Origin: a virus | Direction: 5' to 3' (one strand) | DNA length: 24,445 nt | IMG/VR virus record: IMGVR_UViG_3300031951_001164 | Span: 1 to 24,445 of that record | Part shown: piece after piece, positions 16,557-23,589 of the stretch | Position numbering within the stretch: the stretch's first letter is position 1 | Layout of the letters: each line of letters begins with the position of its first letter | Translations under genes and position numbers: made by a program | The notes under the pieces: model-generated | What the model was told of the DNA's origin: nothing | Seen by the model: only the letters and a program-made list of their open reading frames with translations | The model's database searches: none

Positions 16557-16686
16557 TTTTTTTCTTCTTGAATTTGCCTTGAGCAAGAATCGCCTTGTAA
16601 GCCTTCTCTGCTTTTTCTTTTGTTTCAAATACACACGCTCCTGTTCCTATTCTATACTTTCCGTTTTTACATTTTAAGACCGGCAT
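16546..16686 (-). CDS. Small conserved-looking phage protein (KYRIGTGACVF motif)
   Basis: This is a 46-residue ORF with an ATG at 16686: MPVLKCKNGKYRIGTGACVF, then a helix TKEKAEKAYKAILAQGKF and a Lys-rich end. The order is two strands with paired Cys (C6, C18), then a helix. I recall similar stand-alone or fused segments (KCxxGKYRIGxGxC…A..AYKA) in other phages, so it is probably real. It starts inside the last codons of the GT-B gene (stop at 16667) and overlaps the following 53-residue ORF, as expected for translation coupling. Function is unknown; a small metal- or nucleic-acid-binding module is possible. Confidence 0.65.
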   Translation of the reverse strand: MPVLKCKNGKYRIGTGACVFETKEKAEKAYKAILAQGKFKKKKNGS

Positions 16687-17671
16687 ATAATTGTTTTCTT
16701 TTCTCGTTTACTTTAAATAAGTTATAGTTTGTAACTGCCCATTCAAATAGTTCCAAACCTTTCTCTTGTCTATAAATAGCATCTTCGGTAACTTTTTTAA
16801 TCTCCTTGTACCAATCTCCTTGCTGATTTACTTGTATCATTGGCGAGTTTAAATAAGGCTCAACGTGACTACCAATTACAGGAATCTTCTTACAAGCCGC
16901 CTCTAAAAGTTTTAGATTAGATTTCATTGAATTAAACTTCGTGGCTCGTAACGGAACGATAGAACAATCCGCATCGTTATAAAAATTCATATACTCGGTA
17001 ACAGGAAGGAATCTTCTTACATCTCCTAACTTTAAACCACAAGTAAAGTTTGATATCATCCGATGCCAAATTGCAGCCGAACCCTCTCCAGAATCATCAA
17101 AGCCACAAAGTTGAAAATGAACCTTACTTCTTAAAGAAGAATCGGAAGCGACTTTCTTAAAAGGAAACTGAACTAATTTAATATCTTCTTCGTGAGTTAT
17201 TGAGCCTGTATAAACAAACTTTACTTTGTCGGTGTATTCTCTTACATCTGTGAATTGGTCATTACCATACGGAAGAGCATTTGGAAGTATTGCAACATTT
17301 GAGTTTATAGGTCTAATCTCGTTCCATAACTTTTCGTTAGTGCAAGTAACCAAATCGGCTTCTCTAATGTGATTAATGATTTCTTGTGTTGGGTAAACAC
17401 TTGATAAAATATGCGACCTATCTAATATCCAATAGTCATCTATATCGCAAATCATTTTAAAGCCATACTTTTTTCGTTTCTCTAAAAGAGTTTCCAGATT
17501 AGTTCCTGCAATAAAACGATTAAACAAAAGAATATCGAAGTTTTCTTCTAATACTTCATCCGTTAAAGTATCAGTAAAGAAAGCATAAGTTTTCTCTAAA
17601 TAGTAAATCGGTAGCATCATTCGGTGGTAACCAACTCCGCTTCCTTGTGATGTTAAAACAAGTATTCTCAT
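16667..17671 (-). CDS. GT-B fold glycosyltransferase (GT4-like)
   Basis: This is a 334-residue protein. It starts MRILVLTSQGSGVGYHRMML, a glycine-rich first Rossmann strand-turn. It has ICDIDDYW at about 74-81 and a second domain beginning KVKFVYTGSITHEEDI (about 148). The donor-site region is FNSMKSNLKLLEAACKKIPV (about 247-266), a degenerate form of the GT4 pattern with a conserved Glu. It would transfer a sugar from an NDP donor. It overlaps the previous gene by 4 nt (ATGA). Together with the acyltransferase and GT-A genes it forms a compact glycan-modifying set in the late block. Acceptor is unknown. Confidence 0.8.
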   Translation of the reverse strand: MRILVLTSQGSGVGYHRMMLPIYYLEKTYAFFTDTLTDEVLEENFDILLFNRFIAGTNLETLLEKRKKYGFKMICDIDDYWILDRSHILSSVYPTQEIINHIREADLVTCTNEKLWNEIRPINSNVAILPNALPYGNDQFTDVREYTDKVKFVYTGSITHEEDIKLVQFPFKKVASDSSLRSKVHFQLCGFDDSGEGSAAIWHRMISNFTCGLKLGDVRRFLPVTEYMNFYNDADCSIVPLRATKFNSMKSNLKLLEAACKKIPVIGSHVEPYLNSPMIQVNQQGDWYKEIKKVTEDAIYRQEKGLELFEWAVTNYNLFKVNEKRKQLYAGLKM

Positions 17672-21634: not shown

Positions 21635-21916
21635 ATGGAAAAACAACAAAAAATCTACTGCGGTAGCGGTAAGAAAAAGTCAGACACTTGGTTACAAGCC
21701 TCAATCAACTTGGACAAAATTAAAGAACATATCCAAGAATATAAGGGTAGCCGATTTATTAAAGTAAACATCAATATTAAATCTGAACCCGACCAATACG
21801 GAAAAGATGTTTCTATTTCAATTGATACTTGGAAGCCAGAGGAATCTGAATTTAGGCATAAGCCAGACCCAAAGTTTACACACGATAACACTCCACCCAA
21901 TGACCTTCCGTTCTAA
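21635..21916 (+). CDS. SSB-like single-strand DNA-binding protein candidate
   Basis: This is a 93-residue protein. A short beta-rich core (KIYCGSGKKKSDTWLQASIN, then SRFIKVNINIKSEPDQYGKD, then VSISIDTWKPE) is followed by a disordered Pro/His/Asp tail ending PPNDLPF. The last residues (DLPF, 90-93) match the acidic C-terminal tip by which bacterial SSBs recruit partner proteins (typically DDDIPF). The core is shorter than an OB domain of SSB and lacks its usual motifs, so this may be a phage-specific binder using the same tip. Place beside ninG in the replication block supports a DNA role. TAATG overlap with ninG. Confidence 0.6.
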   Translation: MEKQQKIYCGSGKKKSDTWLQASINLDKIKEHIQEYKGSRFIKVNINIKSEPDQYGKDVSISIDTWKPEESEFRHKPDPKFTHDNTPPNDLPF

Positions 21917-22290
21917 TGGCTAAATTAACCCCACTTCCGAAACTTTTAAAGAAAGCTCAAGACAAATTTAACGCTCATATTAGAGAGCGAGACAAAGAGT
22001 TGGGTTGTATCAGTTGCGGTGGCGAAGTGCAACAAGCAGGGCATTACTTTTCTCAAGGTCAGCACTCTGCATTAAGATTTGCTTTACCTCACGAAGTAGC
22101 TTATTTTAATACTAACGGACAATGTATTCGATGCAATATGTACTTATCTGGTAACTTAATAAAATACAGACAAGGACTTGTTAAAAGGTATGGCGAAGAA
22201 TTTGTTTTGAGATTGGAAGAGGAAGCAGAACAACGCACAAAGAAATGGTCAAGGAGTGAATTAGAAATAATAATTGAAACTTACAAATGA
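21916..22290 (+). CDS. ninG: NinG/Rap-like recombination protein
   Basis: This is a 124-residue protein. C31-x2-C34 (GCISCGG), H43 (AGHYFSQGQHSALRF) and C70-x2-C73 (GQCIRCNMYLSGN) form the Cys/His metal-binding pattern of lambda NinG (Rap), a structure-specific endonuclease acting on branched DNA in recombination and related to HNH folds. It is shorter than lambda NinG but has the N-terminal KLLKKAQDKFNAHIRERD helix and the core. It overlaps the SSB-like gene by 1 nt and the methyltransferase by 4 nt. Confidence 0.85.
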   Translation: MAKLTPLPKLLKKAQDKFNAHIRERDKELGCISCGGEVQQAGHYFSQGQHSALRFALPHEVAYFNTNGQCIRCNMYLSGNLIKYRQGLVKRYGEEFVLRLEEEAEQRTKKWSRSELEIIIETYK

Positions 22291-23141
22291 GACACGGATC
22301 ACTATTTAGCGGAATAGGCGGCTTTGACCTGGCGGCTGAATGGATGGGATGGGAAAATGTGTTTCATTGTGAATGGAATGAGTTTGGTCAAAAAGTCCTA
22401 AAATATTATTGGCCACAAGCCGAAAGTTTTTCGGATATTACAAAAACTGATTTTACTAAATATGCAAACACAATTGATATTCTCACAGGAGGATTCCCTT
22501 GCCAACCATACTCCCAAGCCGGGAAGCGACTCGGCAAAGAAGATGACAGACATCTCTGGCCAGAAATGTTGCGAGCAATTAGAGAGGTTAAACCAAGTTG
22601 GGTTGTGGGCGAAAATGTTTACGGCCTTGTTAATTGGAATGGAGGGTTGGTATTCCACGAAGTGCAATCTGACTTGGAAGCTGAAGGGTACGAAGTATTC
22701 CCGTTTTTACTGCCAGCTGCGGCCGTTAACGCTCCGCACCGTAGAGACCGAATTTGGTTTATTGCCCACACCAACTTGTATGGATATAGCAAATATAAAA
22801 CAGGGAAGAAAAAGCAGCAATTTAGAACAAGGTGGGAGACATTCAGTAACACTAATGGAAATGGCAGCGAAAGGATTTTTACCGACTCCACAAGCTTCAG
22901 ATGGGGGCAAGGAGAATCAAGACAGTTTAACGAAAAGAGCAAGATTAACAACTGGAGTAACTTCCCAACTGTCTCCCCAATTTGTATTGGAGATGATGGG
23001 CTTTCCAACAGATTGGACTCTATTACCTTTCCTAAATGGAGAAACGAATCAATCAAAGCCGGAGGAAATGCCATAGTCCCACAAGTAGTTTATCAAATAT
23101 TTAAAGCAATAGAACAATATCAAAACTTAAAAAATGAATAA
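22287..23141 (+). CDS. dcm: DNA (cytosine-5) methyltransferase
   Basis: This is a 284-residue protein with the C5-MTase motifs in order: I SLFSGIGGFDLAAEWMGW (5-22), IV GGFPCQPYSQAG (68-79, catalytic C72), VI GENV (108-111), VIII APHRRDRIWFIAH (149-161) and X IKAGGNAIVPQVVYQIF near the C-terminus. The target-recognition region between VIII and X is short (about 90 residues). It methylates cytosine in a specific sequence; no cognate restriction enzyme is nearby, so protection of phage DNA from host enzymes is likely. This gene is visibly richer in G+C than its neighbours and holds a long ORF in the +1 frame, both signs of a separate origin. Confidence 0.95.
   Translation: MRHGSLFSGIGGFDLAAEWMGWENVFHCEWNEFGQKVLKYYWPQAESFSDITKTDFTKYANTIDILTGGFPCQPYSQAGKRLGKEDDRHLWPEMLRAIREVKPSWVVGENVYGLVNWNGGLVFHEVQSDLEAEGYEVFPFLLPAAAVNAPHRRDRIWFIAHTNLYGYSKYKTGKKKQQFRTRWETFSNTNGNGSERIFTDSTSFRWGQGESRQFNEKSKINNWSNFPTVSPICIGDDGLSNRLDSITFPKWRNESIKAGGNAIVPQVVYQIFKAIEQYQNLKNE
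22462..23076 (+). CDS. Overlapping ORF inside the methyltransferase gene (+1 frame)
   Basis: This is a 204-codon ORF wholly inside the methyltransferase gene, from an ATG at 22462; the frame is open from 22402. It encodes a basic, Pro/Ser/Thr-rich protein. It has the repeated motif LLPTPTCMD and FLPTPQASDGG, and ends TSQLSPQFVLEMMGFPTDWT-LLPFLNGETNQSKPEEMP (cited in parts). I recall a phage/bacterial protein type with 'LLPTPT..D' repeats and 'L.P.FV..MMGFP..WT.L', so this frame may be selected. Motif X of the host frame (GGNAIVP) corresponds to PEEMP-stop here. The start lacks a Shine-Dalgarno; an AGGAGG at 22488-22493 lies within the ORF. Whether it is translated is open. Confidence 0.45.
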   Translation: MQTQLIFSQEDSLANHTPKPGSDSAKKMTDISGQKCCEQLERLNQVGLWAKMFTALLIGMEGWYSTKCNLTWKLKGTKYSRFYCQLRPLTLRTVETEFGLLPTPTCMDIANIKQGRKSSNLEQGGRHSVTLMEMAAKGFLPTPQASDGGKENQDSLTKRARLTTGVTSQLSPQFVLEMMGFPTDWTLLPFLNGETNQSKPEEMP

Positions 23142-23589
23142 CCACATACAAGCAAACAAACTAATAGAAATGATTTGTGAGGAATACGGAATCACAATGA
23201 AAGATTTAAAGAAAAAGAAATCTGGTTTTCCAAATAGGTTAGTAAATAGAAAAGGTAAAGATGTAAGTTTAGCCTCTATAAGACAAGCACTCTCTTATTT
23301 TATCTTTATGCACTTTCCGTTAAGAATAAAAGAAGTTGCCTCAATGGTTGGGTATTCTGATCATTCTCCTTTATCTTGCCAACGAAAAACTATCGAATAT
23401 TATATCAAAACAAAGGACTTTTATTTTTATCCTTATTATCAAAAAGTTAAAGAGTATGCAGAATTAATCGGAATTAATACTGAAGTTAAAAGGTTAATTT
23501 TACACGAAACACCTTTTGTTAGATATGAAAGTGATTTAGATTTTTTAAGCAATTTAAAATACTATGAAAATGCCGAAACGATTCGTTGA
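23134..23589 (+). CDS. DnaA domain IV-like DNA-binding protein
   Basis: This is a 151-residue protein. The segment SLASIRQALSYFIFMHFPLR (45-64), IKEVASMVGYSDHSPLSCQR (65-84) and a following helix match the pattern of DnaA domain IV: helix, then 'ei…gysdHs.v' box, then basic helix. There is no AAA+ ATPase domain, so it is a stand-alone origin-type binding module. It likely binds phage origin repeats or host dnaA-box-like sites and helps start replication. It overlaps the methyltransferase by 8 nt and the initiator-like gene by 26 nt. The N-terminal 40 residues are helical and basic. The origin itself is not identified. Confidence 0.65.
   Translation: MNNHIQANKLIEMICEEYGITMKDLKKKKSGFPNRLVNRKGKDVSLASIRQALSYFIFMHFPLRIKEVASMVGYSDHSPLSCQRKTIEYYIKTKDFYFYPYYQKVKEYAELIGINTEVKRLILHETPFVRYESDLDFLSNLKYYENAETIR

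Follow-up and report, generated by a model that had tools for sequence, protein, structure and literature searches.

Does a long open reading frame lying inside a phage cytosine methyltransferase gene, in a different register from it, encode a protein of its own, and if so, what would that protein contribute? The question is raised by a virus record of 24,445 bases (the whole stretch of DNA analysed, referred to below as the window), in which siphophage-like genes (portal, tape measure, terminase) are present. Within its gene for a C5-cytosine DNA methyltransferase (MTase), here called alpha, the +1 frame is open from position 22402, just past a stop codon, as far as the stop at 23074–23076, a total of 225 codons, and the first ATG at 22462 gives a 204-aa product, here called beta. 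The length of this frame and the ordered motifs that it encodes were pointed out in the initial annotation, and both were borne out; an open frame of this kind lies far beyond chance expectation. The features of the locus are the following:

22287..23141, + strand: alpha, C5-cytosine DNA methyltransferase catalytic chain, 284 aa, with motifs I–VIII and X and without motif IX or a folded target-recognition domain (TRD)
22462..23076, + strand: beta, ORF of 204 aa overlapping alpha in the +1 frame (family PHROG 1008; selection and stop tests)
22462..22758, + strand: N-terminal part of beta, residues 1–99, over alpha motifs IV–VIII
22488..22508, + strand: alpha motif IV (GGFPCQP, with the catalytic Cys; G68, G69, P71, C72 and Q73 invariant in the alpha alignment)
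22611..22619, + strand: alpha motif VI (ENV), invariant in the alpha alignment
22737..22757, + strand: alpha motif VIII (HRRDRIW), conserved in the alpha alignment
22759..22875, + strand: beta module 1 (LLPTPTCMD...), putative TRD cassette, 39 aa (module analysis)
22782..23021, + strand: alpha residues 166–245, disordered linker at the place of the TRD and motif IX of monomeric C5-MTases
22876..22968, + strand: beta module 2 (FLPTPQASD...), putative TRD cassette, 31 aa (module analysis)
22969..23019, + strand: putative beta motif IX (LSPQFVLEMMGFPTDWT), from hhalign, spacing to alpha motif X and actinophage homology
23064..23081, + strand: alpha motif X (GNAIVP; G260, N261, A262 and P265 invariant in the alpha alignment)

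The gene directly 5' of the MTase (window positions 21916–22290) is NinG-like (Pfam NinG, 8.9e-29), and the one directly 3' (23134–23589) is weakly DnaA-C-terminal-like (4.8e-5, below the cut-off). Further away, a glycosyltransferase-like gene on the − strand (16667–17671; phrog_7162, 2.2e-60) may be a second gene that serves to modify DNA or the virion. No endonuclease or nuclease gene was recognised adjoining the alpha/beta locus.

Coding constraint in the two frames

Stop codon expectations were obtained by redrawing synonymous codons from the usage of the phage's other genes. With the MTase protein held fixed, 9.0 stops were expected in the +1 frame of the window, and none of 20,000 draws was free of stops. 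In the reverse test, with the +1 protein held fixed, the MTase frame would be expected to contain 15.3 stops, yet it contains none. On these two tests, neither frame is likely to be a by-product of the other.

Relatives were fetched using MTase-frame patterns and, separately, +1-frame patterns; the pooled set comprised 126 distinct genes having motif X in full. The MTase-frame patterns name only alpha residues, and relatives selected in this way were therefore not chosen for an open +1 frame. This set alone contained 93 distinct genes in which +1 was open from motif IV through the motif-IX-like site; nine non-scoring genes comprised one with a variant motif, one at a contig end, one truncated MTase and six without the anchor motif, of which four (L181, L187, L189 and L193) were open in +1 by eye. 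Stops occurring freely in close relatives had been named beforehand as evidence against the overlapping gene. Across the 126 genes, a single +1 stop was observed against about 1,300–1,380 expected (1382 by the redraws), and an in-frame internal ATG for beta was present in 125 (13.5 expected). Frames other than alpha and +1 were full of stops in the relatives. Overlap length differed by more than 100 codons among them, with both frames nonetheless open. The sole +1 stop (L058, 3024–3848) lies 24 codons past motif IV, and may represent either a sequencing error or a decaying beta.

Regional counts, made in the 113 genes whose motif VIII could be recognised, gave one +1 stop in the core covering motifs IV–VIII (674–712 expected) and none in the TRD region (519–626 expected), compared with 119 (142–159 expected) in the N-terminal and 192 (137–164 expected) in the C-terminal non-overlap control.

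Differences per alpha codon position followed the normal pattern upstream of the overlap (0.18/0.11/0.47), and were 0.28/0.11/0.12 around the +1 MMGFP (motif IX region) and 0.40/0.13/0.09 in matching TRD-module stretches of 75–85% identity, where amino acid identity was 52% in the alpha frame versus 86% in +1. The dN/dS-like ratio for the +1 frame fell from 0.95 in the non-overlap control to 0.55 over the core, 0.44 over motif IX and 0.15 across the TRD modules, and the corresponding values for the MTase frame were 0.11, 0.17, 0.80 and 1.65. Each site was classed by what a change there does in the two frames; the ratios leave transition bias and common ancestry uncorrected and the SS class was small, and the non-overlap control carries the comparison as a safeguard. 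These data show purifying selection on both frames over motifs IV–VIII; past motif VIII and up to motif IX, it is +1 that is conserved and not the MTase frame. It follows from the ratios that the MTase frame is dominant over motifs IV–VIII and the +1 frame over the TRD. Purifying selection beyond the constraint imposed by the MTase frame, on which the initial annotation had made the case for dual coding depend, was thus found both in the codon-position pattern and in the +1 ratios relative to the control.

On these sequence comparisons, the +1 ORF is evidently a real protein-coding gene, and the stop and selection tests in relatives favour the true overlapping gene that had been offered as one of two explanations. 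Long same-strand overlapping genes are rare in prokaryotes and often doubted; the internal controls available here make the statistical case strong. A 151-codon antisense ORF located in the overlap (22619–23074, − strand) was rejected as a gene, having no family and being interrupted by stops in relatives; it is a by-product of the double constraint.

Division of motifs between alpha and beta

Alpha matched Pfam PF00145 (DNA_methylase) with an E-value of 2e-47, over profile positions 1–189 of 324 only, and the alpha family profile matched M.HhaI 13–179 (4.5e-37). M.HhaI and M.HaeIII were also the best Foldseek matches of the alpha AlphaFold model, in which pLDDT was mostly >90 in the catalytic domain and about 35 in residues 166–245, a stretch with no predicted secondary structure over most of its length and few conserved columns in the alpha alignment. 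The C5-MTase motifs I, IV (PCQ), VI (ENV), VIII (RxR) and X were all identified in alpha, and motif IX was absent from frame 0 by motif/profile search and in the alpha alignment; alpha does not combine motif IX and a TRD on one chain, as a monomeric enzyme does. The earlier statement that the host frame keeps all MTase motifs to its end therefore holds for motifs I–VIII and X but not for motif IX and the TRD, both missing as judged from the partial PF00145 match and AlphaFold: alpha is without motif IX and without a folded TRD. Eleven genomes were found to carry both kinds of enzyme; their monomeric MTases matched PF00145 over nearly the full length, whereas the overlap MTases matched it mostly over the first half only and bore the +1 motif. 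When monomeric MTases were examined frame by frame, +1 was closed and motif IX, where found by search, lay in frame 0.

Beta matched phrog_1008 (2e-21), as did 56 out of 56 betas aligned from relatives to PHROG 1008. Searches of Pfam and NCBIfam returned no family for beta, its N-terminal 100 residues resembling no Pfam family, and a sequence search of PDB gave a chance match only (E 0.41). Residues L57, W63, S65, L70 and W72 of the N-terminal part were conserved in the beta alignments. An AlphaFold model of beta alone (53 sequences, phage-record sequences left out) had a mean pLDDT of 53.7 and a pTM of 0.22; because of this poor quality, no TRD fold is demonstrated and the model was not used for fold searches.

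Near its C-terminus, beta carries the motif L.P.FV.EMMGFP.DWT. When beta was compared with monomeric C5-MTases using hhalign, this stretch alone paired, and it did so, weakly (E 0.07), on their motif IX (ITPREASRLQGFPSDF). Its distance to alpha motif X (median 23.7 codons) is near the IX–X spacing of monomeric sequences. A bridge is provided by actinobacteriophages, in which the MTase consists of two consecutive genes, the second of which bears motifs IX and X as well as LPTP modules. These second genes were found by the beta HMM (E 1e-17 to 1e-9; hhalign 97%, 1.7e-11) and aligned to motifs IX–X of monomeric MTases (1.3e-4), alpha not being matched. The putative motif IX of beta is thus assigned from its position and from the actinophage bridge, the direct profile match being weak. 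Collectively, these observations support the view that beta would supply motif IX and the modules at the TRD position, i.e. the part that alpha lacks.

Between motifs VIII and IX, beta was found to consist of one to five units per gene, with a median length of 39 aa, starting LPTP.A.D. A total of 299 units grouped into 112 clusters, and 103 arrangements were seen in 118 genes; the commonest unit had 20 different successors, and the cluster of module 2 of the window (FLPTPQASD...) was present in 30 genes. Judging by these arrangements, the modules behave as exchangeable cassettes. Their position, together with the tandem TRDs of multispecific phage MTases, suggests that each module may represent one recognition domain. 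If the modules are TRDs, nature provides in them a library of specificities for cytosine methylation that can be interchanged, and the anti-restriction repertoire of a phage could be read from sequence. A wider proposal of combinatorial recognition, for and against which we see the balance as even, would have the ~39-aa beta cassettes act as TRDs which, swapped between phages with both frames open, set the protected restriction sites, the two chains being reciprocally overprinted, with conservation passing from one frame to the other where motif VIII meets the TRD.

Occurrence and annotation of the overlap

Overlaps of this kind turned up among phages and prophages belonging to Bacteroidota (the type seen in the window), Bacillota (Paenibacillus, Lacticaseibacillus, Lihuaxuella), Pseudomonadota (N15 gp58 and phages SEN4, BcepC6B and ABMM1) and cyanobacteria (one cyanophage), and also in one Armatimonadia contig. 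It was uncommon in host genomes, with 3 of 395 positive in one phylum sample, including the genome used as centre. In Acinetobacter phage ABMM1 (L211, 1195–2091), a 298-codon beta lies almost wholly within a 304-codon alpha, starting four bases later. Lihuaxuella thermophila displayed three overlapping MTase loci on separate contigs with equal match scores (L182–L184), probably because a prophage is present more than once or as a product of the assembly.

Both ORFs are annotated as methyltransferase in Paenibacillus and Xanthomonas phages, and elsewhere only alpha is. In Porphyromonas phage 018a (L196, 1700–2750) and Synechococcus phage Sc-Yong805-2 (L210, 1000–2500) beta alone is annotated, as hypothetical; a stand-alone beta without an MTase was considered for these Porphyromonas and Synechococcus phages and rejected, as an unannotated MTase reads in the other frame. 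Bacteroides finegoldii plasmids (L203, L205) carry beta as a hypothetical gene beside a short or missing MTase annotation. PHROG 1008, the cluster of beta, is itself labelled 'DNA methyltransferase', but its members are not the catalytic chain and overlap it in the cases examined. Many phage 'DNA methyltransferase' annotations thus name the wrong half of a two-chain enzyme, or miss one half. The second of the two explanations offered initially, a widely mis-annotated shifted frame of MTase genes, was accurate as regards mis-annotation, with both ORFs called 'DNA methyltransferase' or one only annotated.

Among actinobacteriophages, the split MTases (L259, L260, L262) consist of a gene with motifs I–VIII followed by one with modules, IX and X, an M.AquI-like layout, and a tblastn search with the second half of a split actinophage MTase matched 572 phage records. 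Gp4 of Gordonia phage McKinley (L261, 1116–1523) carries a DNA methyltransferase annotation, but its sequence resembles a beta chain and contains LPTP modules. In Gordonia phage Gudmit (L209, 1284–2669), LPTP modules occur in +1 mid-gene and in the MTase frame at the end, there with IX and X; this gene is possibly a frame-switch intermediate or a frameshift site.

Proposed enzyme and its relation to known systems

From its sequence, the locus very probably encodes a two-polypeptide C5-cytosine methyltransferase of the M.EcoHK31I kind, with beta as the TRD-plus-motif-IX subunit. Alpha, read in frame 0 and bearing motifs I–VIII and X, would bind AdoMet and methylate. Translation of beta would start at its own internal ATG and yield a chain in which target-recognition modules stand in tandem ahead of motif IX; these are the elements of the small domain that are missing in alpha. 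The two chains would then assemble into one active enzyme in which beta picks the target sequence or sequences, and the likeliest use for the phage would be to shield its own DNA from host restriction. As to the origin of the overlap, a monomeric gene may have been split at the motif VIII/TRD boundary with its TRD–IX segment passing into the +1 frame, after which the N-terminus of beta would have been overprinted on alpha motifs IV–VIII and the alpha linker on the TRD.

Programmed ribosomal frameshifting near motif VIII, giving one longer chain with motifs I–VIII, TRD and IX and no independently started beta, would account for the TRD and IX directly following motif VIII in +1 in the monomeric order, and is consistent with gp58 of Gordonia phage Gudmit, where modules, IX and X stand in the MTase's own frame at the C-terminus. 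We nevertheless regard it as improbable, as +1 is also open over motifs IV–VIII (the one stop against 674–712) and under selection there, a frameshift product requires no ATG and a near-universal one lies just upstream, and motif X would be lost after a single +1 shift. It is also very improbable that beta acts separately, as a regulator or accessory protein (e.g. an anti-restriction or transcription regulator) whose gene merely overlaps that of the MTase. Its N-terminal 100 residues without Pfam likeness and its lack of a confident fold would fit such a protein, but its C-terminal half is homologous to the TRD–IX part of split actinophage MTases, at the motif IX position, and exactly the TRD–IX part is missing from alpha. 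The suggestion that the +1 product might be a partner or a regulator of the MTase is therefore supported in its first half, beta having the missing motif IX and modules at the TRD position, and very improbable in its second.

There is next to no probability that +1 is open simply from the amino acid and codon composition of a conserved MTase and yields no product. The conserved alpha sequence does dictate some of the pattern seen in +1 over motifs IV–VIII, yet an artefact of this sort is contradicted by the synonymous redraws, which never open +1, by the ends of the same genes, which carry the expected stops, and by the TRD modules, in which +1 is the conserved frame.

The locus can be compared with several known systems. 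For M.EcoHK31I, Lee, Kam and Shaw reportedly described in 1995 a second chain in an alternative frame inside the first, and M.EaeI is also a two-polypeptide C5-methyltransferase of that kind. A later account of M.EcoHK31I, in which the 1995 work is cited, describes a large subunit with motifs I–VIII and X and a small one with motif IX, and places the predicted TRD on the large subunit (PMC3404938). Alpha likewise has motifs I–VIII and X without IX, which lies on the second chain (with a weak direct E-value), and beta lies in another frame inside alpha, as reported for the second chain of M.EcoHK31I. Unlike that system, the present one belongs to a phage without a recognised endonuclease gene, its beta has 1–5 shuffled modules, and its TRD would be on beta rather than, as predicted there, on the large chain. 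Plasmid searches with N15-type and ABMM1-type beta returned matches, none of them named EcoHK31I.

M.AquI resembles alpha/beta in having catalytic and recognition chains as separate polypeptides split around the TRD. However, its second chain has IX and X, whereas here X is on alpha and the genes overlap; consecutive genes with IX and X on the second chain are found in the actinophage pairs, which are closer to M.AquI than alpha/beta is. In multispecific phage C5-methyltransferases, modules are about 40 aa in size. Enzymes of this group (SPR, H2 type) have several tandem recognition domains between motifs VIII and IX, as set out in a published account (PMC8936443). They are single chains, whereas the array described here belongs to a second chain, read from a different frame.

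No description of such an overlap in phages was found in the literature searches; a paper on a Paenibacillus phage lists two cytosine methyltransferases (gp62, gp63), the overlap being unmentioned in its relevant passages (PMC6070908). Given the M.EcoHK31I precedent, the two-chain C5-MTase is a known kind, of which the phage variant was not found described in the literature searched; it is set apart as a variant by its phage distribution, by measured dual coding with exchanged roles and by its cassette array. What is new relative to the known systems is the wide distribution in phages, dual coding in which the roles of the frames are exchanged at the TRD, module shuffling and systematic mis-annotation.
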